NCBI GenBank assembly: GCA_963965975.1
Contig: OZ014420.1
Coordinates: 5,048,001 to 5,112,000, forward strand
Length of the DNA: 64,000 nt
Reading direction: 5' to 3'
Source: Xestospongia bergquistia
Lineage: Eukaryota > Porifera > Demospongiae > Haplosclerida > Petrosiidae
The notes below the pieces were generated by a model. It was not told where the DNA came from. It did no database searches and saw only the letters and a program-made list of their open reading frames with translations. The translations under genes and the position numbers were made by a program. Positions 1 through 56,818 of this stretch are shown in pieces; positions within the stretch are counted from its first letter, which is position 1, and the number at the start of each line of letters is the position of its first letter.

Positions 1-195
1 GTACTAGTTTGAATCCATCTGGTACTAAGGGTTCAGTATCAAAAACTGGTCGTGTCTTTACTGTACCATATACTATATCTAATGTCAATACTAGTAATGC
101 TGGAGTGTATACCTGTCAGGCTATAGTACAACATAGTGATAGTAACATACTGACATCAGATGCTGGTAGTGATACTGGAACTCTCTCTGTTAAAA
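1..195 (+). CDS. Ig exon, array copy 0 (cut by window edge)
   Basis: Reads in frame from base 3 to the donor at 196 (gtgagt) and supplies the last 65 residues of an array-type Ig domain, including the F-strand AGVYTC motif. It carries the NTS glycosylation sequon. Its start lies left of the window. Confidence 0.93.
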
Positions 196-1397
196 GTGAG
201 TATACACTATTAGTACTACTGTAGATTGGGAAATGTTTGCATTACAAAAGTTTAATGTAAAAAATTAGCATGTTAAAAAATTTCAGACACAAGAGGTGTA
301 TACGAAAAATTATTAATCCCTAAGTTTTGCTAAAAAAGAAATACAAGGCTGCATTAACATCATGATAACTAGCATTTTTACCAATTTTAGTTCATATGCC
401 TGAACTGTGCAGCTGATAAGGTCCACATTTTCTTGACATGCTTTCATGGCCTTCCTAACTTTATTATTTGGCCAAGCAATTGCCTGTAGCTGTATATATG
501 GAAGATGATAGGACCTTTGGATCATCTATAAGTTCCATATATCTCAAAAGAGCCATCTTAGTCATGCCCACACTCTCTACACTTTAAATACTTTCAACAC
601 CACCATATAACATGTGCACTACATACTGTAAATATTTTAATATGTAATAATATTAGTGTGTTTAATTTTCGTACATCGCTTAACATTCAAACTTTTTTTA
701 ACGACGAAATTTTCCCAATCTACAGTATACAATCTAAATGTTATCATTTATTATTTAACATATAGGATAACTTGGAAAGAGTCAATAATACATTGCTTCT
801 AAATATTGTCCACTAAAGTAGTCAAAAAATAATTAGTTTATCCTTTCTTTCTACTTGAACATAAAAGAGTAGCTAAACACTTATTATAATTGATTTAATT
901 CAGAGTAGCATACATAATACAGGTATAACACTTCTATTTTCATTAATACTGCTGTCAGTCTGAAAGTTTAGAGTACTTACATAAGTGCAATCCATTAAAT
1001 TGCCTCTGTCAAAGTTGGTTCTAACACTTTGGTTTTTGAGATTTGATGAAAACAGGAACAGGAAATAAAAAACAATATGTGACACTTTGATGCTCAAAAA
1101 CTGTGTTTTAATTCAATGCTGAAGTATATTCCATTTGTTTTGACTTTGTATATTGATTCTCAACAACAAACTGTTTGTAAAAGAGTTAATTTTGATATCA
1201 TTGGCTTCCTCTTATTCTTATATTTTTTATTTATGAAGTGATTTGCATTTCACAAGTATTCTTTTGACAGCTCTCCATATAATTTTATGCATATAGCCTA
1301 CTGCAAGGAATTACTGTTTGCAAAGTCAATATGAATGGAATATAATACAGATAATTCCATACAATAACTTGTTAACATTTCTGGTATATTTCTTTAG
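196..1397 (+). other. Array intron, representative of the ~1.2-kb introns between Ig exons
   Basis: All array introns share this layout: donor gtgagt; a MITE-like element beginning 24 bases after the exon end; a block rich in single-base and small indel differences between copies; then about 490 bases of more uniform sequence ending in a T-rich stretch and ttctttag. Short antisense open frames of 63 to 76 codons occur but have no recognisable domain. I see no RNA gene or second promoter in these introns. Confidence 0.85.
219..725. mobile_element. MITE-like element with inverted ends and TA flanks, copy 0
   Basis: The left end CTGTAGATTGGGAAA is matched perfectly in inverted orientation at the right end, with weaker similarity for about 30 more bases. 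Both ends are flanked by TA, which fits a Tc1/mariner-type target duplication. The element is 507 bases here and recurs at the same place in every array intron, starting 24 bases after each exon end. It was therefore inserted once and amplified with the unit. No transposase is recognised; a minus-strand open stretch of about 60-70 codons is of unknown origin. Confidence 0.6.
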
Positions 1398-1709
1398 TTC
1401 CAGTTCCAGTTGTATCACTCAATGATATATCAGCTATTGCTGGAAATACAGCTACTTTTACATGTACTATCACAGTGTCTAACTTATTTGATGACAACGG
1501 TCTCTCATTGGCTAGTACTAGTTTGAATCCATCTGGTACTAAGGGTTCAGTATCAAAAACTGGTCGTGTCTTTACTGTACCATATACTATATCTAATATA
1601 AATACTAGTAATGCTGGAGTGTATACCTGTCAGGCTATAGTACAACATAGTGATAGTAACATACTGACATCAGATGCTGGTAGTGATACTGGAACTCTCT
1701 CTGTTAAAA
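1398..1709 (+). CDS. Ig domain exon, array copy 1
   Basis: This is the first complete copy and the reference for the others. After a codon split 1+2 at the acceptor, 104 residues form an Ig-like domain. Cys23 lies in a TFTC B-strand and Cys78 in an AGVYTC F-strand, and the exon ends in a GTLSVK G-strand. The C-strand tryptophan usual in Ig domains is absent. The exon is phase 1-1 and its joint to the next copy makes an Ile codon. Copy 1 carries Ala13, Phe31, Gly35, Ile68 and the Asn69-Thr-Ser71 glycosylation sequon. It is the only Phe31 copy with Gly35. Confidence 0.95.
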
Positions 1710-1732
1710 GTGAGTATACACTATTAGTACTA

Positions 1733-2234
1733 CTGTAGATTGGGAAATGTTTGCATTACAAAAGTTTAATGTAAAAAATTAACATGTTAAAAAATTTCAG
1801 ACACAAGAGGTGTATACGAAAAATTATAAATCCCTAAGTTTTGCTAAAAAAGAAATACAAGGCTGCATTAACATCATGATAACTAGCATTTTACCAATTT
1901 TAGTTCATATGCCTGAACTGTGCAGCTGATAAGGTCCACATTTTCTTGACATGCTTTCATGGCCTTCCTAACTTTATCATTTGGCTAAGCAATTGCCTGT
2001 GGCTGTATGGAAGATGATAGAACCTTTGGATCATCTATAAGTTCCATATATCTCAGAAGAGCCATCTTAGTCATGCCTACACTCTCTACACTTTAAATAC
2101 TTTCAACACCACCATGTAACATGTGCACTACATACTGTAAATATTTTAATATGTAATAATATTAGTGTGTTTAATTTTCGTACATCGCTCAACATTCAAA
2201 CTTTTTTTAAAGACGAAATTTTCCCAATCTACAG
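1733..2234. mobile_element. MITE-like element, copy in intron 1
   Basis: This copy has the same inverted ends and TA flanks, at 502 bases. It is one of the copies lacking a four-base piece in a TATA run near its middle. The same short form follows several other exons, for example copies 5, 7, 14, 16, 20, 22, 24, 26, 29 and 34, so it is a useful marker of unit ancestry. Confidence 0.55.
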
Positions 2235-2908
2235 TATACAATCTAAATGTTATCATTTATTATTTATCATATAGGATAACTTGGAAAGTGTCATTGATAC
2301 ATTGCTTCTAAATATTGTCCACTAAAGTAGTCAAAAATTAATTAGTTTATCCTTTCTTTCTACTTGAACATAAAAGACTAGCTAAACACTTATTATAATT
2401 CATTTAATTCAGAGTAGCATACATGATACAGGTATAACACTTCTATTTTCATTAATACTGCTGTCAGTCTGAAAGTTTAGAGTACTTACATAAGTGCAAT
2501 CCATTAAATTGCCTCTGTCAAAGTTGGTTCTAACACTTTGGTTTTTGAGATTTGATGAAAACAGGAACAGGAAATAAAAAACAATATGTGACTCTTTGAT
2601 GCTCAAAAACTGTGTTTTAATTCAGTGCTGAAGTATATTCCATTTGTTTTGACTTTGTATATTGATTCTCAACAACAAACTGTTTGTAAAAATGAGTTAA
2701 TTTTGATATCATTGGCTTCCTCTTATTCTTATATTTTTTATTTATGAAGTGATTTGCATTTCACAAGTATTCTTTTGACAGCTCTCCATATAATTTTATG
2801 CATATAGTCTACTGCAAGGAATTACTGTTTGCAAAGTCAATATGAATGGAATATAATACAGATAATTCCATACAATAACTTGTTAACATTTCTGGTATAT
2901 TTCTTTAG

Positions 2909-3220
2909 TTCCAGTTCCAGTTGTATCACTCAATGATATATCAGTTATTGCTGGAAATACAGCTACTTTTACATGTACTATCACAGTGTCTAACTTAGTT
3001 GATGACAACGGTCTCTCATTGGCTAGTACCAGTTTGAATCCATCTGGTATTAAGGGTTCAGTATCAAAAACTGGTTGTGTCTTTACTGTACCATATACTA
3101 TATCTAATGTCAATACTGGTAATGCTGGAGTGTATACCTGTCAGGCTATAGTACAACATAGTGATAGTAACATACTGACATCAGATGCTGGTAGTGATAC
3201 TGGAACTCTCTCTGTTAAAA
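2909..3220 (+). CDS. Ig domain exon, array copy 2
   Basis: It has Val31, Gly35 and Gly71 (no sequon). Ile48 replaces Thr, shared only with copy 9 seven units away. It alone has Cys57 in place of Arg, which would add an unpaired cysteine to the domain. Confidence 0.95.
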
Positions 3221-4422
3221 GTGAGTATACACTATTAGTACTACTGTAGATTGGGAAATGTTTGCATTACAAAAGTTTAATGTAAAAATTAACATGTTAA
3301 AAAATTTCAGACACAAGAGGTGTATACGAAAAATTATAAATCCCTAAGTTTTGCTAAAAAAGAAATACAAGGCTGCATTAACATCATGATAACTAGCATT
3401 TTACCAATTTTAGTTCATATGCCTGAACTGTGCAGCTGATAAGGTCCACATTTTCTTGACATGCTTTCATGGCCTTCCTAACTTTATCATTTGGCCAAGC
3501 AATTGCCTGTGGCTGTATATATGGAAGATGATAGAACCTTTGGATCATCTATAAGTTCCATATATCTCAGAAGAGCCATCTTAGTCATGCCCACACTCTC
3601 TACACTTTAAATACTTTCAACACCACCATGTAACATGTGCACTAGATACTGTAAATATTTTAATATGTAATAATATTAGTGTGTTTAATTTTCATACATC
3701 ACTCAACATTGAAACTTTTTTTAACGACTAAATTTTCCCAATCTACAGTATACAATCTAAATGTTATCATTTATTATTTAACATATAGGATAACTTAGAA
3801 AGAGTCAATAATACATTGCTTCTATATATTGCCCACTAAAGTAGTCAAAAACTAATTAGTTTATCCTTTCTTTCTTCTTGAACATAAAAGATTAGCTAAA
3901 CACTTATTATAATTGATTAAATTCAGAGTAGAATACATGATACAGGTATAACACTTCTATTTTCATTAATACTGCTGTCAGTCTGAAAGTTTAGAGTACT
4001 TACATAAGTGCAATCCATTAAATTGCCTCTGTCAAAGTTGGTTCTAACACTTTGGTTTTTGAGATTTGATGAAAACAGGAACAGGAAATAAAAAACAATA
4101 TGTGACTCTTTGATGCTCAAAAACTGTGTTTTAATTCAGTGCTGAAGTATATTCCATTTGTTTTGACTTTGTATATTGATTCTCAACAACAAACTGTTTG
4201 TAAAAAAGAGTTAATTTTGATATCATTGGCTTCCTCTTATTCTTATATTTTTTATTTATGAAGTGATTTGCATTTCACAAGTATTCTTTTGACAGCTCTC
4301 CATATAATTTTATGCATATAGTCTACTGCAAGGAATTACTGTTTGCAAAGTCAATATGAATGGAATATAATACAGATAATTCCATACAATAACTTGTTAA
4401 CATTTCTGGTATATTTCTTTAG

Positions 4423-4734
4423 TTCCAGTTCCAGTTGTATCACTCAATGATATATCAGTTATTGCTGGAAATACAGCTACTTTTACATGTACTATCACAG
4501 TGTCTAACTTAGTTGATGACAACGGTCTCTCATTGGCTAGTACTAGTTTGAATCCATCTGGTACTAAGGGTTCAGTATCAAAAACTGGTCGTGTCTTTAC
4601 TGTACCATATACTATATCTAATGTCAATACTAGTAATGCTGGAGTGTATACCTGTCAGGCTATAGTACAACATAGTGATAGTAACATACTGACATCAGAT
4701 GCTGGTAGTGATACTGGAACTCTCTCTGTTAAAA
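4423..4734 (+). CDS. Ig domain exon, array copy 3
   Basis: It has Val31, Gly35 and Ser71 (sequon present). Its intron begins with a variant, cactataagt, shared only with copies 10 and 17, which marks the seven-unit higher-order repeat. Confidence 0.95.
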
Positions 4735-5936
4735 GTGAGTATACACTATAAGTACTACTGTAGATTGGGAAATGTTTGCATTACAAAAGTTTAATGTAAA
4801 AAATTAACATGTTAAAAAATTTCAGACACAAGAGGTGTTTACGAAAAATTATAAATCCCTAAGTTTTGCTAAAAAAGAAATACAAGGCTGCATTAACATC
4901 ATGATAACTAGCATTTTTACCAATTTTAGTTCATATGCCTGAACTGTACAGCTGATAAGGTCCACATTTTCTTGATATGCTTTCGTGGCCTTCCTAACTT
5001 TATCATTTGGCCAAGCAATTGCCTGTGGCTGTATATATGGAAGATGATAGAACCTTTGGATCATCTATAAGTTCCATATATCTCAGAAGAGCCATCTTAG
5101 TCATGCCTACACTCTCTACACTTTAAATACTTTCAACACCACCATGTAACATGTGCACTAGATACTGTAAATATTTTAATATGTAATAATATTAGTGTGT
5201 TTAATTTTCGTACATCGCTCAACATTCAAACTTTTTTTAACGACGAAATTTTCCCAATCTACAGTATACAATCTAAATGTTATCATTTATTATTTAACAT
5301 ATAGGATAACTTGGAAAGAGTCAATAATACATTGCTTCTAAATATTTTCAACTAAAGTAGTCAAAAATTAATTAGTTTAACCTTTCTTTCTACTTGAACA
5401 TAAAAGACTAGCTAAACACTTATTATAAATGATTAAATTCAGAGTAGCATACATGATACAGGTATAACACTTCTATTTTCATTAATACTGCTGTCAGTCT
5501 GAAAGTTTAGAGTACTTACATAAGTGCAATCCATTAAATTGCCTCTGTCAAAGTTGGTTCTAACACTTTGGTTTTTGAGATTTGATGAAAACAGGAACAG
5601 GAAATAAAAAACAATATGTGACTCTTTGATGCTCAAAAACTGTGTTTTAATTCAGTGCTGAAGTATATTCCATTTGTTTTGACTTTGTATATTGATTCTC
5701 AACAACAAACTGTTTGTAAAAGAGTTAATTTTGATATCATTGGCTTCCTCTTATTCTTATATTTTTTATTTATGAAGTGATTTGCATTTCACAAGTATTC
5801 TTTTGACAGCTCTCCATATAATTTTATGCATATAGTCTACTGCAAGGAATTACTGTTTGCAAAGTCAATATGAATGGAATATAATACAGATAATTCCATA
5901 CAATAACTTGTTAACATTTCTGGTATATTTCTTTAG

Positions 5937-6248
5937 TTCCACTTCCAGTTGTATCACTCAATGATATATCAGTTATTGCTGGAAATACAGCTACTTTTAC
6001 ATGTACTATCACAGTGTCTAACTTATTTGATGACAACAGTCTCTCATTGGCTAGTACTAGTTTGAATCCATCTGGTACTAAGGGTTCAGTATCAAAAACT
6101 GGTCGTGTCTTTACTGTACCATATACTATATCTAATGTCAATACTAGTAATGCTGGAGTGTATACCTGTCAGGCTATAGTACAACATAGTGATAGTAACA
6201 TACTGACATCAGATGCTGGTAGTGATACTGGAACTCTCTCTGTTAAAA
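5937..6248 (+). CDS. Ig domain exon, array copy 4
   Basis: It has Leu3, Phe31, Ser35 and Ser71. Leu3 is shared with copies 11 and 31 only, the first being seven units away. Confidence 0.95.
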
Positions 6249-7450
6249 GTGAGTATACACTATTAGTACTACTGTAGATTGGGAAATGTTTGCATTACAA
6301 AAGTTTAATGTAAAAAATTAACATGTTAAAAAATTTCAGACACAAGAGGTGTATACGAAAAATTATTAATCCCTAAGTTTTGCTAAAAAAGAAATACAAG
6401 GCTGCATTAACATCATGATATCTAGCATTTTACCAATTTTAGTTCATATGCCTGAACTGTGCAGCTGATAAGGTCCACATTTTCTTGACATGCTTTCATG
6501 GCCTTCCTAACTTTATCATTTGGCCAAGCAATTGCCTGTGGCTGTATATATGGAAGATGATAGAACCTTTGGATCATCTATAAGTTCCATATATCTCAGA
6601 AGAGCCATCTTAGTCATGCCCACACTCTCTACACTTTAAATACTTTCAACACCACCATGTAACATGTGCACTACATACTGTAAATATTTTAATATGTAAT
6701 AATATTAGTGTGTTTAATTTTCGTACATCGCTCAACATTCAAACTTTTTTTAACGACGAAATTTTCCCAATCTACAGTATACAATCTAAATGTTATCATT
6801 TATTATTTAATATATAGGATAACTTAGAAAGAGTTAATAATACATTGCTTCTAAATATTTTCCACTAAAGTAGTCAAAAATTAATTAGTTTATCCTTTCT
6901 TTCTTCTTGAACATAAAAGACTAGCTAAACACTTATTATAATTGATTAAATTCAGAGTAGCATACATGATACAGGTATAACACTTCTATTTTCATTAATA
7001 CTGCTGTCAGTCTGAAAGTTTAGAGTACTTACATAAGTGCAATCCATTAAATTGCCTCTGTCAAAGTTGGTTCTAACACTTTGGTTTTTGAGATTTGATG
7101 AAAACAGGAACAGGAAATAAAAAAACAATATGTGACTCTTTGATGCTCAAAAACTGTGTTTTAATTCAGTGCTGAAGTATATTCCATTTGTTTTGACTTT
7201 GTATATTGATTCTCAACAACAAACTGTTTGTAAAAGAGTTAATTTTGATATCATTGGCTTCCTCTTGTTCTTATATTTTTTATTTATGAAGTGATTTGCA
7301 TTTCACAAGTATTCTTTTGACAGCTCTCCATATAATTTTATGCATATAGTCTACTGCAAGGAATTACTGTTTGCAAAGTCAATATGAATGGAATATAATA
7401 CAGATAATTCCATACAATAACTTGTTAACATTTCTGGTATATTTCTTTAG

Positions 7451-7762
7451 TTCCAGTTCCAGTTGTATCACTCAATGATATATCAGTTATTGCTGGAAAT
7501 ACAGCTACTTTTACATGTACTATCACAGTGTCTAACTTAGTTGATGACAACGGTCTCTCATTGGCTAGTACCAGTTTGAATCCATCTGGTACTAAGGGTT
7601 CAGTATCAAAAACTGGTCGTGTCTTTACTGTACCATATACTATATCTAATGTCAATACTGGTAATGCTGGAGTGTATACCTGTCAGGCTATAGTACAACA
7701 TAGTGATAGTAACATACTGACATCAGATGCTGGTAGTGATACTGGAACTCTCTCTGTTAAAA
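7451..7762 (+). CDS. Ig domain exon, array copy 5
   Basis: It has Val31, Gly35 and Gly71, so it lacks the sequon. It encodes the same protein as copies 7, 12, 20, 22, 29 and 34. Confidence 0.95.
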
Positions 7763-8961
7763 GTGAGTATACACTATTAGTACTACTGTAGATTGGGAAA
7801 TGTTTGCATTACAAAAGTTTAATGTAAAAAATTAACATGTTAAAAAATTTCAGACACAAGAGGTGTATACGAAAAATTATTAATCCCTAAGTTTTGCTAA
7901 AAAAGAAATACAAGGCTGCATTAACATCATGATAACTAGCATTTTACCAATTTTAGTTCATATGCCTGAACTGTGCAGCTGATAAGGTCCACATTTTCTT
8001 GACATGCTTTCATGGCCTTCCTAACTTTATCATTTGGCTAAGCAATTGCCTGTGGCTGTATGGAAGATGATAGAACCTTTGGATCATCTATAAGTTCCAT
8101 ATATCTCAGAAGAGCCATCTTAGTCATGCCTACACTCTCTACACTTTAAATACTTTCAACACCACCATGTAACATGTGCACTACATACTGTAAATATTTT
8201 AATATGTAATAATATTAGTGTGTTTAATTTTCGTACATCACTCAACATTCAAACTTTTTTTAACGACTAAATTTTCCCAATCTACAGTATACAATCTAAA
8301 TGTTATCATTTATTATTTAACATATAGGATAACTTAGAAAGAGTCAATAATACATTGCTTCTATATATTGCCCACTAAAGTAGTCAAAAACTAATTAGTT
8401 TATCCTTTCTTTCTTCTTGAACATAAAAGATTAGCTAAACACTTATTATAATTGATTAAATTCAGAGTAGAATACATGATACAGGTATAACACTTCTATT
8501 TTCATTAATACTGCTGTCAGTCTGAAAGTTTAGAGTACTTACATAAGTGCAATCCATTAAATTGCCTCTGTCAAAGTTGGTTCTAACACTTTGGTTTTTG
8601 AGATTTGATGAAAACAGGAACAGGAAATAAAAAACAATATGTGACTCTTTGATGCTCAAAAACTGTGTTTTAATTCAGTGCTGAAGTATATTCCATTTGT
8701 TTTGACTTTGTATATTGATTCTCAACAACAAACTGTTTGTAAAAATGAGTTAATTTTGATATCATTGGCTTCCCCTTATTTTTATATTTTTTATTTATGA
8801 AGTGATTTGCATTTCACAAGTATTCTTTTGACAGCTCTCCATATAATTTTATGCATATAGTCTACTGCAAGGAATTACTGTTTGCAAAGTCAATATGAAT
8901 GGAATATAATACAGATAATTCCATACAATAACTTGTTAACATTTCTGGTATATTTCTTTAG

Positions 8962-9273
8962 TTCCAGTTCCAGTTGTATCACTCAATGATATATCAGTTA
9001 TTGCTGGAAATACAGCTACTTTTACATGTACTATCACAGTGTCTAACTTAGTTGAGGACAACGGTCTCTCATTGGCTAGTACTAGTTTGAATCCATCTGG
9101 TACTAAGGGTTCAGTATCAAAAACTGGTCGTGTCTTTACTGTACCATATACTATATCTAATGTAAATACTAGTAATGCTGGAGTGTATACCTGTCAGGCT
9201 ATAGTACAACATAGTGATAGTAACATACTGACATCAGATGCTGGTAGTGATACTGGAACTCTCTCTGTTAAAA
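8962..9273 (+). CDS. Ig domain exon, array copy 6
   Basis: It has Val31, Gly35 and Ser71. Glu32 in place of Asp is unique to this copy. Confidence 0.95.
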
Positions 9274-10476
9274 GTGAGTATACACTATTAGTACTACTGT
9301 AGATTGGGAAATGTTTGCATTACAAAAGTTTAATGTAAAAAATTAACATGTTAAAAAATTTCAGACACAAGAGGTGTATACGAAAAATTATTAATCCCTA
9401 AGTTTTGCTAAAAAAGAAATACAAGGCTGCATTAACATCATTATATCTAGCATTTTACCAATTTTAGTTCATATGCCTGAACTGTACAGCTGATAAGGTC
9501 CACATTTTCTTGATATGCTTTCGTGGCCTTCCTAACTTTATCATTTGGCCAAGCAATTGCCTGTGGCTGTATATATGGAAGATGATAGAACCTTTGGATC
9601 ATCTATAAGTTCCATATATCTCAGAAGAGCCATCTTAGTCATGCCTACACTCTCTACACTTTAAATACTTTCAACACCACCATGTAACATGTGCACTAGA
9701 TACTGTAAATATTTTAATATGTAATAATATTAGTGTGTTTAATTTTCATACATCGCTCAACATTCAAACTTTTTTTAACGACGAAATTTTCCCAATCTAC
9801 AGTATACAATCTAAATGTTATCATTTATTATTTAATATATAGGATAACTTAGAAAGAGTTAATAATACATTGCTTCTAAATATTTTCCACTAAAGTAGTC
9901 AAAAATTAATTAGTTTATCCTTTCTTTCTTCTTGAACATAAAAGACTAGCTAAATACTTATTATAATTGATTAAATTCAGAGTAGCATACATAATACAGG
10001 TATAACACTTCTATTTTCATTAATACTGCTGTCAGTCTGAAAGTTTAGAGTACTTACATAAGTGCAATCCATTAAATTGCCTCTGTCAAAGTTGGTTCTA
10101 ACACTTTGGTTTTTGAGATTTGATGAAAACAGGAACAGGAAATAAAAAACAATATGTGACTCTTTGATGCTCAAAAACTGTGTTTTAATTCAGTGTTGAA
10201 GTATATTCCATTTGTTTTGACTTTGTATATTGATTCTCAACAACAAACTGTTTGTAAAAAAGAGTTAATTTTGATATCATTGGCTTCCTCTTATTCTTAT
10301 ATTTTTTATTTATGAAGTGATTTGCATTTCACAAGTATTCTTTTGACAGCTCTCCATATAATTTTATGCATATAGTCTACTGCAAGGAATTACTGTTTGC
10401 AAAGTCAATATGAATGGAATATAATACAGATAATTCCATACAATAACTTGTTAACATTTCTGGTATATTTCTTTAG

Positions 10477-10788
10477 TTCCAGTTCCAGTTGTATCACTCA
10501 ATGATATATCAGTTATTGCTGGAAATACAGCTACTTTTACATGTACTATCACAGTGTCTAACTTAGTTGATGACAACGGTCTCTCATTGGCTAGTACCAG
10601 TTTGAATCCATCTGGTACTAAGGGTTCAGTATCAAAAACTGGTCGTGTCTTTACTGTACCATATACTATATCTAATGTCAATACTGGTAATGCTGGAGTG
10701 TATACCTGTCAGGCTATAGTACAACATAGTGATAGTAACATACTGACATCAGATGCTGGTAGTGATACTGGAACTCTCTCTGTTAAAA
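10477..10788 (+). CDS. Ig domain exon, array copy 7
   Basis: It has Val31, Gly35 and Gly71, with no private residue. Confidence 0.95.
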
Positions 10789-11987
10789 GTGAGTATACAC
10801 TATTAGTACTACTGTAGATTGGGAAATGTTTGCATTACAAAAGTTTAATGTAAAAAATTAACATGTTAAAAAATTTCAGACACAAGAGGTGTATACGAAA
10901 AATTATTAATCCCTAAGTTTTGCTAAAAAAGAAATACAAGGCTGCATTAACATCATGATAACTAGCATTTTACCAATTTTAGTTCATATGCCTGAACTGT
11001 GCAGCTGATAAGGTCCACATTTTCTTGACATGCTTTCATGGCCTTCCTAACTTTATCATTTGGCTAAGCAATTGCCTGTGGCTGTATGGAAGATGATAGA
11101 ACCTTTGGATCATCTATAAGTTCCATATATCTCAGAAGAGCCATCTTAGTCATGCCCACACTCTCTACACTTTAAATACTTTCAACACCACCATGTAACA
11201 TGTGCACTACATACTGTAAATATTTTAATATGTAATAATATTAGTGTGTTTAATTTTCGTACATCACTCAACATTCAAACTTTTTTTAACGACTAAATTT
11301 TCCCAATCTACAGTATACAATCTAAATGTTATCATTTATTATTTAACATATAGGATAACTTAGAAAGAGTCAATAATACATTGCTTCTATATATTGCCCA
11401 CTAAAGTAGTCAAAAACTAATTAGTTTATCCTTTCTTTCTTCTTGAACATAAAAGATTAGCTAAACACTTATTATAATTGATTAAATTCAGAGTAGAATA
11501 CATGATACAGGTATAACACTTCTATTTTCATTAATACTGTTGTCAGTCTGAAAGTTTAGAGTACTTACATAAGTGCAATCCATTAAATTGCCTCTGTCAA
11601 AGTTGGTTCTAACACTTTGGTTTTTGAGATTTGATGAAAACAGGAACAGGAAATAAAAAACAATATGTGACTCTTTGATGCTCAAAAACTGTGTTTTAAT
11701 TCAGTGCTGAAGTATATTCCATTTGTTTTGACTTTGTATATTGATTCTCAACAACAAACTGTTTGTAAAAATGAGTTAATTTTGATATCATTGGCTTCCC
11801 CTTATTTTTATATTTTTTATTTATGAAGTGATTTGCATTTCACAAGTATTCTTTTGACAGCTCTCCATATAATTTTATGCATATAGTCTACTGCAAGGAA
11901 TTACTGTTTGCAAAGTCAATATGAATGGAATATAATACAGATAATTCCATACAATAACTTGTTAACATTTCTGGTATATTTCTTTAG

Positions 11988-12299
11988 TTCCAGTTCCAGT
12001 TGTATCACTCAATGATATATCAGTTATTGCTGGAAATACAGCTACTTTTACATGTACTATCACAGTGTCTAACTTAGTTGATGACAACGGTCTCTCATTG
12101 GCTAGTACTAGTTTGAATCCATCTGGTACTAAGGGTTCAGTATCAAAAACTGGTCGTGTCTTTACTGTACCATATACTATATCTAATGTCAATACTAGTA
12201 ATGCTGGAGTGTATACCTGTCAGGCTATAGTACAACATAGTGATAGTAACATACTGACATCAGATGCTGGTAGTGATACTGGAACTCTCTCTGTTAAAA
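11988..12299 (+). CDS. Ig domain exon, array copy 8
   Basis: It has Val31, Gly35 and Ser71. The intron after it carries a cattaagatcatg variant shared with the intron after copy 15, again seven units apart. Confidence 0.95.
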
Positions 12300-13504
12300 G
12301 TGAGTATACACTATTAGTACTACTGTAGATTGGGAAATGTTTGCATTACAAAAGTTTAATGTAAAAAATTAACATGTTAAAAAATTTCAGACACAAGAGG
12401 TGTATACGAAAAATTATTAATCCCTAAGTTTTGCTAAAAAAGAAATACAAGGCTGCATTAAGATCATGATAACTAGCATTTTTACCAATTTTAGTTTTTA
12501 TGCCTGAACTGTGCAGCTGATAAGGTCCACATTTTCTTGACATGCTTTCATGGCCTTCCTAACTTTATCATTTGGCTAAGCAATTGCCTGTGGCTGTATA
12601 TATGGAAGATGATAGGACCTTTGGATCATCTATAAGTTCCGTATATCTCAGAAGAGCCATCTTAGTCATGCCCACACTCTCTACACTTTAAATACTTTCA
12701 ACACCACCATGTAACATGTGCACTACATACTGTAAATATTTTAATATGTAATAATATTAGTGTGTTTAATTTTCGTACATCACTCAACATTCAAACTTTT
12801 TTTAACGACGAAATTTTCCCAATCTACAGTATACAATCTAAATGTTATCATTTATTATTTAATATATAGGATAACTTAGAAAGAGTTAATAATACATTGC
12901 TTCTATATATTGCCCACTAAAGTAGTCAAAAATTAATTAGTTTATCCTTTCTTTCTACTTGAACATAAAAGACTAGCTAAACACTTATTATAATTGATTA
13001 AATTCAGAGTAGCATACATGATACAGGTATAACACTTCTATTTTCATTAATACTGCTGTCAGTCTGAAAGTTTAGAGTACTTACATAAGTGCAATCCATT
13101 AAATTGCCTCTGTCAAAGTTGGTTCTAACACTATGGTTTTTGAGATTTGATGAAAACAGGAACAGGAAATAAAAAACAATATGTGACACTTTGATGCTCA
13201 AAAACTGTGTTTTAATTCAGTGCTGAAGTATATTCCATTTGTTTTGACTTTGTATATTGATTCTCAACAACAAACTGTTTGTAAAAAAGAGTTAATTTTG
13301 ATATCATTGGCTTCCTCTTATTCTTATATTTTTTATTTATGAAGTGATTTGCATTTCACAAGTATTCTTTTGACAGCTCTCCATATAATTTTATGCATTA
13401 TAGTCTACTGCAAGGAATTACTGTTTGCAAAGTCAATATGAATGGAATATAATACAGATAATTCCATACAATAACTTGTTAACATTTCTGGTATATTTCT
13501 TTAG

Positions 13505-44080: not shown

Positions 44081-45279
44081 GTGAGTATACACTATTAGTA
44101 CTACTGTAGATTGGGAAATGTTTGCATTACAAAAGTTTAATGTAAAAAATTAACATGTTAAAAAATTTCAGACACAAGAGATGTATACGAAAAATTATTA
44201 ATCCCTAAGTTTTGCTAAAAAAGAAATACAAGGCTGCATTAACATCATGATAACTAGCATTTTACCAATTTTAGTTCATATGCCTGAACTGTGCAGCTGA
44301 TAAGGTCCACATTTTCTTGACATGCTTTCATGGCCTTCCTAACTTTATCATTTGGCTAAGCAATTGCCTGTGGCTGTATGGAAGATGATAGAACCTTTGT
44401 ATCATCTATAAGTTCCATATATCTCAGAAGAGCCATCTTAGTCATGCCTACACTCTCTACACTTTAAATACTTTCAACACCACCATGTAACATGTGCACT
44501 ACATACTGTAAATATTTTAATATGTAATAATATTAGTGTGTTTAATTTTCGTACATCACTCAACATTCAAACTTTTTTTAACGACTAAATTTTCCCAATC
44601 TACAGTATACAATCTAAATGTTATCATTTATTATTTAACATATAGGATAACTTAGAAAGAGTCAATAATACATTGCTTCTATATATTGCCCACTAAAGTA
44701 GTCAAAAACTAATTAGTTTATCCTTTCTTTCTTCTTGAACATAAAAGATTAGCTAAACACTTATTATAATTGATTAAATTCAGAGTAGCATACATGATAC
44801 AGGTATAACACTTCTATTTTCATTAATACTGCTGTCAGTCTGAAAGTTTAGAGTACTTACATAAGTGCAATCCATTAAATTGCCTCTGTCAAAGTTGGTT
44901 CTAACACTTTGGTTTTTGAGATTTGATGAAAACAGGAACAGGAAATAAAAAACAATATGTGACTCTTTGATGCTCAAAAACTGTGTTTTAATTCAGTGTT
45001 GAAGTATATTCCATTTGTTTTGACTTTGTATATTGATTCTCAACAACAAACTGTTTGTAAAAAAGAGTTAATTTTGATATCATTGGCTTCCTCTTATTCT
45101 TATATTTTTTATTTATGAAGTGATTTGCATTTCACAAGTATTCTTTTGACAGCTCTCCATATAATTTTATGCATATAGTCTACTGCAAGGAATTACTGTT
45201 TGCAAAGTCAATATGAATGGAATATAATACAGATAATTCCATACAATAACTTGTTAACATTTCTGGTATATTTCTTTAG

Positions 45280-45591
45280 TTCCAGTTCCAGTTGTATCAC
45301 TCAATGATATATCAGTTATTGCTGGAAATACAGCTACTTTTACATGTACTATCACAGTGTCTAACTTATTTGATGACAACAGTCTCTCATTGGCTAGTAC
45401 TAGTTTGAATCCATCTGGTACTAAGGGTTCAGTATCAAAAACTGGTCGTGTCTTTACTGTACCATATACTATATCTAATGTCAATACTAGTAATGCTGGA
45501 GTGTATACCTGTCAGGCTATAGTACAACATAGTGATAGTAACATACTGACATCAGATGCTGGTAGTGATACTGGAACTCTCTCTGTTAAAA
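45280..45591 (+). CDS. Ig domain exon, array copy 30
   Basis: It has Phe31, Ser35 and Ser71. Confidence 0.95.
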
Positions 45592-46793
45592 GTGAGTATA
45601 CACTATTAGTACTACTGTAGATTGGGAAATGTTTGCATTACAAAAGTTTAATGTAAAAAATTAACATGTTAAAAAATTTCAGACACAAGAGGTGTATACG
45701 AAAAATTATTAATCCCTAAGTTTTGCTAAAAAAGAAATACAAGGCTGCATTAGCATCATAATAACTAGCATTTTTACCAATTTTAGTTCATATGCCTGAA
45801 CTGTACAGCTGATAAGGTCCACATTTTCTTGATATGCTTTCATGGCCTTCCTAACTTTATCATTTGGCCAAGCAATTGCCTGTGGCTGTATATATGGAAG
45901 ATGATAGAACCTTTGGATCATCTATAAGTTCCATATATCTCAGAAGAGCCATCTTAGTCATGCCCACACTCTCTACACTTTAAATACTTTCAACACCACC
46001 ATGTAACATGTGCACTACATACTGTAAATATTTTAATATGTAATAATATTAGTGTGTTTAATTTTCGTACATCGCTCAACATTCAAAATTTTTTTAACGA
46101 CGAAATTTTCCCAATCTACAGTATACAATCTAAATGTTATCATTTATTATTTAATATATAGGATAACTTGGAAAGAGTCAATAATACATTGCTTCTAAAT
46201 ATTGTCCACTAAAGTAGTCAAAAATTAATTAGTTTATCCTTTCTTTCTACTTGAACATAAAAGACTAGCTAAACACTTATTATAATTGATTAAATTCAGA
46301 GTAGCATACATGATACAGGTATAACACTTCTATTTTCATTAATACTGCTGTCAGTCTGAAAGTTTAGAGTACTTACATAAGTGCAATCCATTAAATTGCC
46401 TCTGTCAAAGTTGGTTCTAACACTTTGGTTTTTGAGATTTGATGAAAACAGGAACAGGAAATAAAAAACAATATGTGACTCTTTGATGCTCAAAAACTGT
46501 GTTTTAATTCAGTGCTGAAGTATATTCCATTTGTTTTGACTTTGTATAGTGATTCTCAACAACAAACTGTTTGTAAAAGAGTTAATTTTGATATCATTGG
46601 CTTCCTCTTATTCTTATATTTTTTATTTATGAAGTGATTTGCATTTCACAAGTATTCTTTTGACAGCTCTCCATATAATTTTATGCATATAGTCTACTGC
46701 AAGGAATTACTGTTTGCAAAGTCAATATGAATGGAATATAATACAGATAATTCCATACAATAACTTGTTAACATTTCTGGTATATTTCTTTAG

Positions 46794-47105
46794 TTCCACT
46801 TCCAGTTGTATCACTCAATGATATATCAGTTATTGCTGGAAATACAGCTACTTTTACATGTACTATCACAGTGTCTAACTTATTTGATGACAACAGTCTC
46901 TCATTGGCTAGTACTAGTTTGAATCCATCTGGTACTAAGGGTTCAGTATCAAAAACTGGTCGTGTCTTTACTGTACCATATACTATATCTAATGTCAATA
47001 CTAGTAATGCTGGAGTGTATACCTGTCAGGCTATAGTACAACATAGTGATAGTAACATACTGACATCAGATGCTGGTAGTGATACTGGAACTCTCTCTGT
47101 TAAAA
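46794..47105 (+). CDS. Ig domain exon, array copy 31
   Basis: It has Leu3, Phe31, Ser35 and Ser71, the same protein as copies 4 and 11 although 20 units from the nearer one. Confidence 0.95.
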
Positions 47106-48307
47106 GTGAGTATACACTATTAGTACTACTGTAGATTGGGAAATGTTTGCATTACAAAAGTTTAATGTAAAAAATTAACATGTTAAAAAATTTCAGACAC
47201 AAGAGGTGTATACGAAAAATTATAAATCCCTAAGTTTTGCTAAAAAAGAAATACAAGGCTGCATTAACATCATGATAACTAGCATTTTTACCAATTTTAG
47301 TTCATATGCCTGAACTGTGCAGCTGATAAGGTCCACATTTTCTTGACATGTTTTCATGGCCTTCCTAACTTTATCATTTGGCTAAGCAATTGCCTGTGGC
47401 TGTATATATGGAAGATGATAGAACCTTTGGATCATCTATAAGTTCCATATATCTCAGAAGAGCCATCTTAGTCATGCCTACACTCTCTACACTTTAAATA
47501 TTTTCAACACCACCATGTAACATGTGCACTACATACTGTAAATATTTTAATATGTAATAATATTAGTGTGTTTAATTTTCGTACATCGCTCAACATTCAA
47601 ACTTTTTTTAAAGACGAAATTTTCCCAATCTACAGTATACAATCTAAATGTTATCATTTATTATTTAATATACAGGGTAACTTAGAAAGAGTTAATAATA
47701 CATTGCTTTTAAATATTGTCCACTAAAGTAGTCAAAAATTAATTAGTTTATCCTTTATTTCTACTTGAACATAAAAGACTAGCTAAATACTTATTATAAT
47801 TGATTAAATTCAGAGTAGCATACATAATACAGGTATAACACTTCTATTTTCATTAATACTGCTGTCAGTCTGAAAGTTTAGAGTACTTACATAAGTGCAA
47901 TCCATTAAATTGCCTCTGTCAAAGTTGGTTCTAACACTTTGGTTTTTGAGATTTGATGAAAACAGGAACAGGAAATAAAAAACAATATGTGACACTTTGA
48001 TGCTCAAAAACTGTGTTTTAATTCAGTGCTGAAATATATTCCATTTGTTTTGACTTTGTATATTGATTCTCAACAACAAACTGTTTGTAAAAGAGTTAAT
48101 TTTGATATCATTGGCTTCCTCTTATTCTTATATTTTTTATTTATGAAGTGATTTGCATTTCACAAGTATTCTTTTGACAGCTCTCCATATAATTTTATGC
48201 ATATAGTCTACTGCAAGGAATTACTGTTTGCAAAGTCAATATGAATGGAATATAATACAGATAATTCCATACAATAACTTGTTAACATTTCTGGTATATT
48301 TCTTTAG

Positions 48308-48619
48308 TTCCAGTTCCAGTTGTATCACTCAATGATATATCAGTTATTGCTGGAAATACAGCTATTTTTACATGTACTATCACAGTGTCTAACTTAGTTG
48401 ATGACAACGGTCTCTCATTGGCTAGTACTAGTTTGAATCCATCTGGTACTAAGGGTTCAGTATCAAAAACTGGTCGTGTCTTTACTGTACCATATACTAT
48501 ATCTAATGTCAATACTAGTAATGCTGGAGTGTATACCTGTCAGGCTATAGTACAACATAGTGATAGTAACATACTGACATCAGATGCTGGTAGTGATACT
48601 GGAACTCTCTCTGTTAAAA
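48308..48619 (+). CDS. Ig domain exon, array copy 32
   Basis: It has Val31, Gly35 and Ser71. Ile20 replaces Thr in the B-strand before Cys23 and is unique. Confidence 0.95.
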
Positions 48620-49821
48620 GTGAGTATACACTATTAGTACTACTGTAGATTGAAAAATGTTTGCATTACAAAAGTTTAATGTAAAAAATTAACATGTTAA
48701 AAAATTTCAGACACAATAGGTGTATGCGAAAAATTATAAATCCCTAAGTTTTGCTAAAAAAGAAATACAAGGCTACATTAACATCATGATAACTAGCATT
48801 TTTACCAATTTTAGTTCATATGCCTGAACTGTACAGCTGATAAGGTCCACATTTTCTTAATATGCTTTCATGGCTTTCCTAACTTTATCATTTGGCCAAG
48901 CAATTGCCTGTAGCTGTATATATGGAAGATGATAGAACCTTTGGATCATCTATAAGTTCCATATATCTCAAAAGAGCCATCTTAGTCATGCCTACACTCT
49001 CTACACTTTAAATACTTTCAACACCACCATGTAACATGTGCACTACATACTGTAAATATTTTAATATGTAATAATATTAGTGTGTTTAATTTTCGTACAT
49101 CGCTCAACATTCAAACTTTTTTTAAAGACGAAATTTTCCCAATCTACAGTATACAATCTAAATGTTATCATTTATTATTTAACATATAGGATAACTTGGA
49201 AAGAGTCAATAATACATTGCTTCTAAATATTGTCCACTAAAGTAGTCAAAAACTAATTAGTAAATCCTTTCTTTCTACTTGAACATAAAAGACTAGCTAA
49301 ACACTTATTATAATTGATTGAATTCAGAGTAGCATACATAATACAGGTATAACACTTCTATTTTCATTAATACTGCTGTCAGTCTGAAAGTTTAGAGTAC
49401 TTACATAAGTGCAATCCATTAAATTGCCTCTGTCAAAGTTGGTTCTAACACTTTGGTTTTTGAGATTTGATGAAAACAGGAACAGGAAATAAAAAACAAT
49501 ATGTGACTCTTTGATGCTCAAAAACTGTGTTTTAATTCAGTGCTGAAATATATTCCATTTCTTTTGACTTTGTATATTGATTCTCAACAACAAACTGTTT
49601 GTAAAAGAGTTAATTTTGATATCATTGGCTTCCTCTTATTCTTATATTTTCTATTTATGAAGTGATTTGCATTTCACAAGTATTCTTTTGACAGCTCTCC
49701 ATATAATTTTATGCATATAGTCTACTGCAAGGAATTACTGTTTGCAAAGTCAATATGAATGGAATATAATACAGATAATTCCATACAATAACTTGTTAAC
49801 ATTTCTGGTATATTTCTTTAG

Positions 49822-50133
49822 TTCCAGTTCCAGTTGTATCACTCAATGATATATCAGTTATTGCTGGAAATACAGCTACTTTTACATGTACTATCACAGT
49901 GTCTAACTTATTTGATGACAACAGTCTCTCATTGGCTAGTACTAGTTTGAATCCATCTGGTACTAAGGGTTCAGTATCAAAAACTGGTCGTGTCTTTACT
50001 GTACCATATACTATATCTAATGTCAATACTAGTAATGCTGGAGTGTATACCTGTCAGGCTATAGTACAACATAGTGATAGTAACATACTGACATCAGATG
50101 CTGGTAGTAATACTGGAACTCTCTCTGTTAAAA
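49822..50133 (+). CDS. Ig domain exon, array copy 33
   Basis: It has Phe31, Ser35 and Ser71. Asn97 replaces Asp and is unique; it makes no new sequon because Gly99 follows Thr98. Confidence 0.95.
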
Positions 50134-51332
50134 GTGAGTATACACTATTAGTACTACTGTAGATTGGGAAATGTTTGCATTACAAAAGTTTAATGTAAAA
50201 AATTAACATGTTAAAAAATTTCAGACACAAGAGGTGTATACGAAAAATTATTAATCCCTAAGTTTTGCTAAAAAAGAAATACAAGGCTGCATTAACATCA
50301 TGATAACTAGCATTTTACCAATTTTAGTTCATATGCCTGAACTGTACAGCTGATAAGGTCCACATTTTCTTGATATGCTTTCATGGCCTTCCTAACTTTA
50401 TCATTTGGCCAAGCAATTGCCTGTGGCTGTATATATGGAAGATGATAGGACCTTTGGATCATCTATAAGTTCCATATATCTCAGAAGAGCCATCTTAGTC
50501 ATGCCTACACTCTCTACACTTAAAACTTTCAACACCACCATGTAACATGTGCACTACATACTGTAAATATTTTAATATGTAATAATATTAGTGTGTTTAA
50601 TTTTCGTACATCGCTCAACATTCAAACTTTTTTTAAAGACGAAATTTTCCCAATCTACAGTATACAATCTAAATGTTATCATTTATTATTTAATATATAC
50701 GGTAACTTAGAAAGAGTTAATAATACATTGCTTCTAAATATTGTCCACTAAAGTAGTCAAAAATTAATTAGTTTATCCTTTCTTTCTACTTGAACATAAA
50801 AGATTAGCTAAACACTTATTATAATTGATTGAATTCAGAGTAGCATACATGATACAGGTATAACACTTCTATTTTCATTAATACTGCTGTCAGTCTGAAA
50901 GTTTAGAGTACTTACATAAGTGCAATCCATTAAATTGCCTCTGTCAAAGTTGGTTCTAACACTTTGGTTTTTGAGATTTGATGAAAACAGGAACAGGAAA
51001 TAAAAAACAATATGTGACTCTTTGATGCTCAAAAACTGTGTTTTAATTCAGTGCTGAAGTATATTCCATTTGTTTTGACTTTGTATATTGATTCTCAACA
51101 ACAAACTGTTTGTAAAAAAGTTAATTTTGATATCATTGGCTTCCTCTTATTCTTATATTTTTTATTTATGAAGTGATTTGCATTTCACAAGTATTCTTTT
51201 GACAGCTCTCCATATAATTTTATGCATATAGTCTACTGCAAGGAATTACTGTTTGCAAAGTCAATATGAATGGAATATAATACAGATAATTCCATACTGT
51301 AACTTGTTAACATTTCTGGTATATTTCTTTAG

Positions 51333-51644
51333 TTCCAGTTCCAGTTGTATCACTCAATGATATATCAGTTATTGCTGGAAATACAGCTACTTTTACATGT
51401 ACTATCACAGTGTCTAACTTAGTTGATGACAACGGTCTCTCATTGGCTAGTACTAGTTTGAATCCATCTGGTACTAAGGGTTCAGTATCAAAAACTGGTC
51501 GTGTCTTTACTGTACCATATACTATATCTAATGTCAATACTGGTAATGCTGGAGTGTATACCTGTCAGGCTATAGTACAACATAGTGATAGTAACATACT
51601 GACATCAGATGCTGGTAGTGATACTGGAACTCTCTCTGTTAAAA
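51333..51644 (+). CDS. Ig domain exon, array copy 34
   Basis: It has Val31, Gly35 and Gly71. Its upstream intron matches that of copy 24. Confidence 0.95.
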
Positions 51645-52842
51645 GTGAGTATACACTATTAGTACTACTGTAGATTGGGAAATGTTTGCATTACAAAAGT
51701 TTAATGTAAAAAATTAACATGTTAAAAAATTTCAGACACAAGAGGTGTATACGAAAAATTATTAATCCCTAAGTTTTGCTAAAAAAGAAATACAAGGCTG
51801 CATTAACATCATGATAACTAGCATTTTACCAATTTTAGTTCATATGCCTGAACTGTGCAGCTGATAAGGTCCACATTTTCTTGACATGCTTTCATGGCCT
51901 TCCTAACTTTATCATTTGGCCAAGCAATTGCCTGTGGCTGTATGGAAGATGATAGAACCTTTGGATCATCTATAAGTTCCATATATCTCAGAAGAGCTAC
52001 CTTAGTCATGCCTACACTCTCTACACTTTAAATACTTTCAACACCACCATGTAACATGTGCACTACATACTGTAAATATTTTAATATATAATAATATTAG
52101 TGTGTTTAATTTTCGTACATCACTCAACATTCAAACTTTTTTTAACGACTAAATTTTTCCAATCTACAGTATACAATCTAAATGTTATCATTTATTATTT
52201 AATATATAGGATAACTTAGAAAGAGTCAATAATACATTGCTTCAATATATTGCCCACTAAAGTAGTCAAGAACTAATTAGTTTATCCTTTCTTTCTTCTT
52301 GAACATAAAAGATTAGCTAAACACTTATTATAATTGATTCAATTCAGAGTAGAATACATGATACAGGTATAACACTTCTATTTTCATTAATACTGCTGTC
52401 AGTCTGAAAGTTTAGAGTACTTACATAAGTGCAATCCATTAAATTGCCTCTGTCAAAGTTGGTTCTAACACTTTGGTTTTTGAGATTTGATGAAAACAGG
52501 AACAGGAAATAAAAAACAATATGTGACTCTTTGATGCTCAAAAACTGTGTTTTAATTCAGTGCTGAAGTATATTCCATTTGTTTTGACTTTGTATATTGA
52601 TTCTCAACAACAAACTGTTTGTAAAAAGAGTTAATTTTGATATCATTGGCTTCTTCTTATTCTTATATTTTTTATTTATGAAGTGATTTGCATTTCACAA
52701 GTATTCTTTTGACAGCTCTCCATATAATTTTATGCATATAGTCTACTGCAAGGAATTACTGTTTGCAAAGTCAATATGAATGGAATATAATACAGATAAT
52801 TCCATACAATAACTTGTTAACATTTCTGGTATATTTCTTTAG

Positions 52843-53154
52843 TTCCAGTTCCAGTTGTATCACTCAATGATATATCAGTTATTGCTGGAAATACAGCTAC
52901 TTTTACATGTACTATCACAGTGTCTAACTTAGTTGATGACAACGGTCTCGCATTGGCTAGTACTAGTTTGAATCCATCTGGTACTAAGGGTTCAGTATCA
53001 AAAACTGGTCGTGTCTTTACTGTACCATATACTATATCTAATGTCAATACTAGTAATGCTGGAGTGTATACCTGTCAGGCTATAGTACAACATAGTGATA
53101 GTAACATACTGACATCAGATGCTGGTAGTGATACTGGAACTCTCTCTGTTAAAA
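52843..53154 (+). CDS. Ig domain exon, array copy 35
   Basis: It has Val31, Gly35, Ala37 and Ser71. Ala37 pairs it with copy 25, 15,129 bases upstream. Confidence 0.95.
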
Positions 53155-54356
53155 GTGAGTATACACTATTAGTACTACTGTAGATTGGGAAATGTTTGCA
53201 TTACAAAAGTTTAATGTAAAAAATTAACATGTTAAAAAATTTCAGACACAAGAGGTGTATACGAAAAATTATAAATCCCTAAGTTTTGCTAAAAAAGAAA
53301 TACAAGGCTGCTAACATCTTGATAACTAGCATTTTTACCAATTTTAGTTCATATGCCTGAACTGTGCAGCTGATAAGGTCCACATTTTCTTGATATGCTT
53401 TCATGGCCTTCCTAACTTTATCATTTGGCCAAGCAATTGCCTGTGGCTGTATATATGGAAGATGATAGAACCTTTGTATCATCTATAAGTTCCATATATC
53501 TCAGAAGAGCCATCTTAGTCATGCCTACACTCTCTACACTTTAAATACTTTCAACACCACCATGTAACATGTGCACTACATACTGTAAATATTTTAATAT
53601 GTAATAATATTAGTGTGTTTAATTTTCGTACATCGCTCAACATTCAAACTTTTTTTAAAGACGAAATTTTCCCAATCTACAGTATACAATCTAAATGTTA
53701 TCATTTATTATTTAATATATAGGGTAACTTAGAAAGAGTAAATAATACATTGCTTCTAAATATTGTCCACTAAAGTAGTCAAAAATTAATTAGTTTATCC
53801 TTTCTTTCTTCTTGAACATAAAAGACTAGCTAAACACTTATTATAATTGATTAAATTCAGAGTAGCATACATGATACAGGTATAACACTTCTATTTTCAT
53901 TAATACTGCTGTCAGTCTGAAAGTTTAGAGTACTTACATAAGTGCAATCCATTAAATTGCCTCTGTCAAAGTTGGTTCTAACACTTTGGTTTTTGAGATT
54001 TGATGAAAACAGGAACAGGAAATAAAAAACAATATGTGACTCTTTGATGCTCAAAAACTGTGTTTTAATTCAGTGTTGAAGTATATTCCATTTGTTTTGA
54101 CTTTGTATATTGATTCTCAACAACAAACTGTTTGTAAAAAAGAGTTAATTTTGATATCATTGGCTTCCTCTTATTCTTATATTTTTTATTTATGAAGTGA
54201 TTTGCATTTCACAAGTATTCTTTTGACAGCTCTCCATATAATTTTATGCATATAGTCTACTGCAAGGAATTACTGTTTGCAAAGTCAATATGAATGGAAT
54301 ATAATACAGATAATTCCATACAATAACTTCTTAACATTTCTGGTATATTTCTTTAG

Positions 54357-54668
54357 TTCCAGTTCCAGTTGTATCACTCAATGATATATCAGTTATTGCT
54401 GGAAATACAGCTACTTTTACATGTACTATCACAGTGTCTAACTTTGTTGATGACAACAGTCTCTCATTGGCTAGTACTAGTTTGAATCCATCTGGTACTA
54501 AGGGTTCAGTATCAAAAACTGGTCGTGTCTTTACTGTACCATATACTATATCTAATGTCAATACTAGTAATGCTGGAGTGTATACCTGTCAGGCTATAGT
54601 ACAACATAGTGATAGTAACATACTGACATCAGATGCTGGTAGTGATACTGGAACTCTCTCTGTTAAAA
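54357..54668 (+). CDS. Ig domain exon, array copy 36
   Basis: It has Phe30 (unique), Val31, Ser35 and Ser71. Confidence 0.95.
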
Positions 54669-55870
54669 GTGAGTATACACTATTAGTACTACTGTAGATT
54701 GGGAAATGTTTGCATTACAAAAGTTTAATGTAAAAAATTAACATGTTAAAAAATTTCAGACACAAGAGGTGTATACGAAAAATTATTAATCCCTAAGTTT
54801 TGCTAAAAAAGAAATACAAGGCTGCATTAACATCATGATAACTAGCATTTTTACCAATTTTAGTTCATATGCCTGAACTGTACAGCTGATAAGGTCCACA
54901 TTTTCTTGACATGCTTTCATGGCCTTCCTAACTTTATCATTTGGCCAAGCAATTGCCTGTGGCTGTATATATGGAAGATGATAGAACCTTTGGATCATCT
55001 ATAAGTTCCATATATCTCAGAAGAGCCATCTTAGTCATGCCTACACTCTCTACACTTTAAATACTTTCAACACCACCATGTAACATGTGCACTAGATACT
55101 GTAAATATTTTAATATGTAATAATATTAGTGTGTTTAATTTTCGTACATCGCTCAACATTCAAACTTTTTTTAACGACGAAATTTTCCCAATCTACAGTA
55201 TACAATCTAAATGTTATCATTTATTATTTAATATATAGGATAACTTGGAAAGAGTCAATAATACATTGCTTCTAAATATTGTCCACTAAAGTAGTCAAAA
55301 ATTAATTAGTTTATCCTTTCTTTCTACTTGAACATAAAAGACTAGCTAAACACTTATTATAATTGATTAAATTCAGAGTAGCATACATGATACAGGTATA
55401 ACACTTCTATTTTCATTAATACTGCTGTCAGTCTGAAAGTTTAGAGTACTTACATAAGTGCAATCCATTAAATTGCCTCTGTCAAAGTTGGTTCTAACAC
55501 TTTGGTTTTTGAGATTTGATGAAAACAGGAACAGGAAATAAAAAACAATATGTGACTCTTTGATGCTCAAAAACTGTGTTTTAATTCAGTGCTGAAGTAT
55601 ATTCCATTTGTTTTGACTTTGTATATTGATTCTCAACAACAAACTGTTTGTAAAAGAGTTAATTTTGATATCATTGGCTTCCTCTTATTCTTATATTTTT
55701 TATTTATGAAGTGATTTGCATTTCACAAGTATTCTTTTGACAGCTCTCCATATAATTTTATGCATATAGTCTACTGCAAGGAATTACTGTTTGCAAAGTC
55801 AATATGAATGGAATATAATACAGATAATTCCATACAATAACTTGTTAACATTTCTGGTATATTTCTTTAG

Positions 55871-56185
55871 TTCCAGTTCCAGTTGTATCACTCAATGATA
55901 TATCAGTTATTGCTGGAAATACAGCTACTTTTACATGTACTATCACAGTGTCTAACTTAGTTGATGACAACGGTCTCTCATTGGCTAGTACTAGTTTGAA
56001 TCCATCTGGTACTAAGGGTTCAGTATCAAAAACTGGTCGTGTCTTTACTGTACCATATACTATATCTAATGTCAATACTGGTAATGCTGGAGTGTATAAC
56101 TGTCAGGCTATAGTACAACATGATAGTAATAGTAACATGCTGACATCAGATGCTGGTAGTGATACTGGAACTCTCTCTGTTAAAA
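55871..56185 (+). CDS. Ig domain exon, array copy 37 (last, one codon longer)
   Basis: This is the only array exon of 315 bases. The loop after Gln83 reads HDSNSNM instead of HSDSNI, and Asn77 replaces Thr. It has Val31, Gly35 and Gly71. It is the most divergent copy, as expected of an end unit that takes less part in exchange with its neighbours. Confidence 0.94.
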
Positions 56186-56319
56186 GTGAGTATACACTAT
56201 TAGTACTACTGTAGATTGGGAAATGTTTGCATTACAAAAGTTTAATGTAAAAAATTAACGTGTTAAAAAATTTCAGACACAAGAGGTGTATACGAAAACT
56301 ATTAATCCCTAAATTTTGC

Positions 56320-56394
56320 AATGTGCAACACATTGAGCACTATAGAAGAGTAAGGTATGAATTATTTTATTTAAGGCTATCACGTATATAATTC
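56320..56394. other. 75-base segment found only in the last array intron
   Basis: Relative to the other units, this intron has about 75 extra bases inside the MITE-like element, between the attttgc and taaaaaagaa blocks. It begins with a small hairpin, AATGTG-CAA-CACATT. It may be an insertion, or ancestral sequence lost before the rest of the array expanded; being in the end unit, the second is plausible. Confidence 0.7.
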
Positions 56395-56818
56395 TAAAAA
56401 AGAAATACAAGGCTGCATTAACATCATGATAACTAGCATTTTTACCAATTTTAGTTTATATGCCTGAACTGTACAGCTGATAAGGTCCACATTTTCTTGA
56501 CATGCTTTCATGGCCTTCCTAACTTTATCATTTGGCCAAGCAATTGCCTGTGGCTGTATATATGGAAGATGATAGAACCTTTGGATCATCTATAAGTTCC
56601 ATATATCTCAGAAGAGCCATCTTAGTCATGCCTACACTCTCTACACTTTAAATACTTTCAACACCACCATGTAACATGTGCACTACATACTGTAAATATT
56701 TTAATATGTAATAATATTAGTGTGTTTAATTTTCGTACATCACTCAACATTCAAACTTTTTTAACAATGAAGTTTTTTAAATGTAATAATGTAACTAATG
56801 TTATATCTTTTTTTATAG

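Follow-up and report, generated by a model that had tools for sequence, protein, structure and literature searches.

The immunoglobulin exon array

The window analysed here, a stretch of 64,000 nucleotides from the sponge Xestospongia bergquistia (contig OZ014420.1, positions 5,048,001 to 5,112,000), carries on its forward strand a tandem array of immunoglobulin (Ig) exons that is followed by ten further exons in the same frame. The array comprises 37 complete exons alternating with introns (1398–56185; delimited by exon and splice-site location, reading frames, and Pfam Ig matches) and, to their left, the 3' part of another exon (1–195), which is open in the array frame and terminates at the array donor. 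The array thus reaches the left edge of the window, with the 5' end of the gene lying beyond it, and the count of 38 is a lower bound. While 36 of the complete exons measure 312 bp, the last one (55871–56185) has 315 bp owing to one extra codon. All 37 are open in the frame that begins two bases past the acceptor, and all array exons are in phase 1-1, which allows in-frame splicing to one another as well as to the exon at 56819. Successive exon starts are spaced by 1510–1517 bp, and the array introns are 1198–1205 bp long. The splice sites, initially located by patterns tolerating four mismatches, are identical at their core positions in every copy (donor AAAGTGAGT in 38/38, acceptor TTTCTTTAG in 37/37). 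The translated array amounts to 3,913 residues. Its last intron (56186–56818) contains a segment of ~75 bp at about 56318–56393 that is absent from units 1–36, and homology to the array intron stops at ~56776. These measurements bear out the preliminary description of the locus, which had counted 37 complete exons and one partial exon, open and in the same phase, had given a period of ~1.513 kb and an array end at 56765, had seen the array run off the left edge, and had put the length of the Ig chain above 3,900 residues.

The assignment of the unit to the Ig fold, likewise made previously, agrees with a Pfam search in which two units were scanned as one joined sequence (ig PF00047, 5.9e-12; I-set, 1.9e-11). 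Both core cysteines are kept in 37/37 array exons. Ig domains usually have a conserved tryptophan in their core; the translations of the array units contain no tryptophan. At codons 69–71, an N-glycosylation site (N-T-S) is present in 21/37 copies and lost in the others, which read N-T-G (14 copies), D-T-S (one), or S-T-G (one). A sequence search of the PDB returned general Ig matches only (66 at E up to 1), the best being NCAM2 with an E value of 4.9e-4. With no alignment supplied, structure prediction reached a mean pLDDT of 71.9 in its best model and 40–57 in the remaining four; Foldseek retrieved generic Ig folds with TM scores of 0.47–0.60 among the 50 matches listed, titin and Sidekick Ig domains among them. 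No relative of the Ig unit was detected in viral contigs or prokaryote genome contigs and none of one fibronectin type III (FN3) exon in viral contigs, that is, in collections not expected to contain animal genes.

The array introns have features of their own. Their consensus contains a 53-column inverted repeat (81 % identity; intron positions 14–63 and 487–537) that looks like the termini of a short DNA transposon, and the array breaks off within its right arm at ~56776. The hexamer AATAAA occurs once in 35 of the 37 introns between 196 and 55870, with none in one intron and two in another; in such AT-rich DNA it may be meaningless or may permit early polyadenylation. Long open frames of the consensus intron, which reach 70 residues at most when the exon is left out, were not counted as genes. 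Neither tRNAs nor Rfam matches at gathering scores were found in the window.

Downstream exons and the cytoplasmic tail

Together with the ten downstream exons, the array forms one frame of 5,183 residues (534 kDa) with a single, terminal stop at 61829 and GT-AG at the junctions of the gene model. The array is followed by two further phase 1-1 Ig exons: that at 56819–57142 is recognized by Pfam as Ig, whereas that at 57894–58217, scanned alone, matches Ig_3 below the curated cutoff (2.2e-4). They are 93.2 % identical, with 5 synonymous and 16 nonsynonymous differences. From 58218 onward, the introns are short (46–98 bp by exon coordinates). The third downstream exon (58316–58609) matched no Pfam family and gave a low-confidence all-beta model (pLDDT 58.8), and is probably Ig-like. 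Four FN3 exons, all above the Pfam curated cutoff, lie at 58662–58991 (2.7e-7), 59039–59335 (4.4e-17), 59382–59678 (1.7e-7), and 59731–60027 (3.7e-8). The ensuing transmembrane exon (60075–60177) provides the sole hydropathy peak above 1.6 in the entire 5,183-residue model. This order of Ig domains, FN3 domains, one membrane segment, and a tail of 515 residues is the layout of Ig-FN3 single-pass adhesion receptors. Spliceosomal introns combined with Ig, FN3, and membrane-spanning parts within a single gene also point to an animal origin. The earlier proposal, a giant single-pass receptor equipped with a signalling tail, is hence well supported as a gene model; the attribute “undescribed”, however, appears too strong, because near-identical in-frame exon arrays of such size are known, for example, LPA KIV-2 (see below).

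The tail carries ten YD[V/L]P motifs and is encoded by two exons. Tail exon 1 (60231–60347), which holds one YDVP, is a duplicate of the start of tail exon 2, intron included, and the underlying 170-bp tandem duplication (60169–60517) encompasses the whole of tail exon 1 plus its intron. Tail exon 2 (60401–61829) contributes another YDVP and eight YDLP motifs in repeats of 57 residues and ends with the stop at 61829. The corresponding 171-bp coding unit is present in 7.6 copies (60515–61815), which constitutes a repeat array independent of the Ig array; compared with the second unit as reference, seven units differ at 0–2 of 171 bases. None of the ITIM-like or YxN patterns tried matched the tail. 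Beyond the gene, at the right edge of the window (63258–64000, minus strand), lies a retroelement integrase remnant (rve PF00665, E 2e-10), adjoined by a second piece that matched no Pfam family.

Exchange and constraint among the array units

Units 1–36 share a mean identity of 98.4 % (range 97.2–99.9 %), in line with the near-identity claimed at the outset, and no two of the 36 are identical. Unit 37, situated at the array edge, has diverged furthest, reaching no more than 96.6 % identity to any other unit; because of its truncated intron and the additional codon in its exon, it was excluded from the unit statistics. The longest exact repeat in the window spans 1,358 bp and occurs at a distance of seven units. 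Over the same distance, units 2–4 and 9–11 differ at merely 4, 3, and 7 positions, respectively. Comparison with 5,000 shuffled orders over 19 lags (uncorrected P values) revealed that units at lag 7 are closer to each other than by chance (P 0.0022) and that immediate neighbours are less alike (P 0.0008). In units 1–36, the informative two-state sites form 1,485 pairs, 774 of which show all four combinations of states, and the 36 exons encode 20 distinct proteins. A seven-unit higher-order repeat with shuffled variants is as expected of unequal multi-unit exchange plus gene conversion. For the contig as assembled, these comparisons establish that an Ig exon of phase 1-1 was copied, together with its intron of 1.2 kb, into at least 38 near-identical units, the variants of which have been reshuffled.

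In units 1–36, the exon has a nucleotide diversity of 0.0105 and the intron one of 0.0175, and 23/312 exon sites vary as compared to 131/1,203 intron sites, making the exon only weakly less variable (P 0.07). Within the intron, diversity is uneven, with up to 0.045 per 100 columns in its middle and 0.004–0.011 in the last 400–500 columns, such that the last ~400 bases vary less than most of the exon. Among the distinct exon changes, 20 are nonsynonymous and 4 synonymous (pN 0.0110, pS 0.0089, pN/pS ~1.2), which does not depart from the site ratio (P 0.46); intron rates would predict 29.7 nonsynonymous changes, 8.4 synonymous changes, and 1.2 stops. One copy even has G replaced by E within the AGVYTC motif. 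Purifying selection on single copies was looked for in units 1–36 and not found. In contrast to 13 distinct indel events in the introns, none of the 36 exons has acquired an indel or a stop; an exon free of constraint that changed at mean intron rates would show neither with a joint chance of ~0.01, a figure that depends on which part of the intron is taken as neutral, because intron variation is so uneven. The reading frame therefore seems to be kept across the array, while individual residues look hardly constrained and, since amino-acid changes among the copies are not depleted, single copies look dispensable. For the same reason, and given that the exon is only weakly less variable than the intron, the sequence does not prove that every copy is used.

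A candidate giant receptor and its precedents

Taken as a whole, the locus is best explained by a receptor for adhesion or recognition in which the Ig stalk has lengthened recently, in the manner of the kringle array of human LPA. The complete reading, to which we assign a probability of roughly 60 %, is that of a giant type I receptor, exceeding 5,000 residues and crossing the membrane once, with an exchangeable Ig stalk and a Crk-docking tail. The array exons would be joined into one long transcript, in which the skipping of any exon would preserve the frame. With an Ig domain measuring roughly 4 nm in length, the repeats could form a multivalent stalk with a length on the order of 150 nm that either bears an N-terminal head encoded beyond the window or itself binds weakly but many times. 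Upon engagement, a Src-type kinase would phosphorylate the YD[V/L]P tyrosines, which could then recruit several Crk-type SH2 adaptors. Because the units are interchangeable, unequal crossing-over would alter the length of the stalk and its avidity while leaving the frame intact, and as a consequence copy number should vary between individuals.

One alternative is an expansion that is real but functionally idle, a recent satellite-like amplification inside an intron-exon unit in which most copies are skipped or the allele is degraded. Amino-acid changes are not depleted, the 3' part of the intron is as well conserved as the exon, some changes touch motif residues (such as the G to E change in AGVYTC in one copy), and the higher-order repeat structure is reminiscent of satellites. 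Such an idle array nevertheless appears unlikely in view of 37/37 intact frames with all splice sites preserved, the lack of exon indels against 13 intron events, and the fact that the tail repeats are likewise in frame. A use of the array as a store of isoforms, with one or few Ig exons per transcript, strikes us as rather doubtful. The common phase and splice sites would keep any subset of exons in frame, 20 distinct proteins are available among 36 exons, and mutually exclusive tandem Ig exons are described for Dscam (PMC1397879). Yet at a mean unit identity of 98.4 %, with mostly single substitutions, choosing one exon would yield little diversity, identical splice sites offer no basis for an exclusive choice, and Rfam found no known RNA structure; exclusive choice as in Dscam is less likely precisely because the copies are so alike.

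High identity might also betray an assembler that multiplied a far shorter array, and blocks such as units 2–4 and 9–11 are indeed nearly the same. We regard such an artefact as improbable, as there is no identical pair among the 36 units, the longest exact repeat is confined to 1,358 bp, runs of N are lacking, and copying one segment would not create the many variant combinations observed. A more daring interpretation, and one that we deem highly improbable, is that of length-coded recognition: the number of units and the order of variants along the stalk would serve as a highly mutable individual tag, and cells would compare stalk length or pattern, for example, the on/off order of N-T-S and N-T-G glycosylation, instead of a variable binding site, with the YD[V/L]P tail providing graded output.

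The receptor reading with an exchangeable stalk finds partial precedents in several systems. Titin and hemicentin share long chains of Ig domains; these domains are diverged, and neither protein is a single-pass receptor, whereas units 1–36 of the present array are 97.2–99.9 % identical. The Sidekick/Dscam class shares the Ig block, the FN3 block, the one membrane segment, and the tail, its Ig domains being few and diverged. The exon arrays of Dscam are mutually exclusive according to PMC1397879; diverged alternative exons of that type were not found in the array described here (mean unit identity 98.4 %).

The array itself is most reminiscent of human LPA KIV-2, of which 1 to >40 copies with 98–100 % identical exons are described and in which exons for an extracellular domain are likewise tandemly copied with their introns, with duplication or gene conversion spreading the variants (PMC4378929). 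Near-identical exon-plus-intron units exchanging sequence are thus common to both, as an evolutionary mode and not as homology; copy-number polymorphism has been shown for LPA KIV-2, whereas here a single sequence was read. The LPA KIV-2 unit is a kringle and not an Ig domain, comprises two exons in 5.5 kb, and belongs to a secreted protein without a membrane segment or signalling tail. For the tail, p130Cas offers a parallel: its substrate domain is described as containing 15 YxxP motifs that bind Crk SH2 domains once phosphorylated by Src family kinases (PMC12071665), as compared to ten YD[V/L]P motifs here. By analogy, the tail would recruit Crk-type SH2 adaptors as that domain does, with the difference that its motifs sit in a receptor tail and mostly inside near-identical 57-residue repeats. 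The closest precedents are LPA KIV-2 for the array, p130Cas for the tail, and Ig-FN3 receptors such as Sidekick for the layout. Each of the three elements, tandem Ig chains, coding copy-number arrays, and YxxP repeats, has been known before; a single gene combining them, with 38 or more near-identical Ig domains on one exon each, did not turn up in searches of open-licence papers, which argues only weakly for its absence.

Should the array be used as read, the gene would encode an extreme receptor: the number of copies of one interchangeable exon would determine its reach and avidity, and its own tail would hold a second, independent repeat array. The gene would then allow a clean test for selection on, or polymorphism in, receptor length itself, as well as a test of how the spliceosome handles ~38 nearly identical consecutive exons and introns. 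If individuals of this sponge differ in copy number, the receptor would naturally come into consideration for individual recognition or for length-tuned adhesion.
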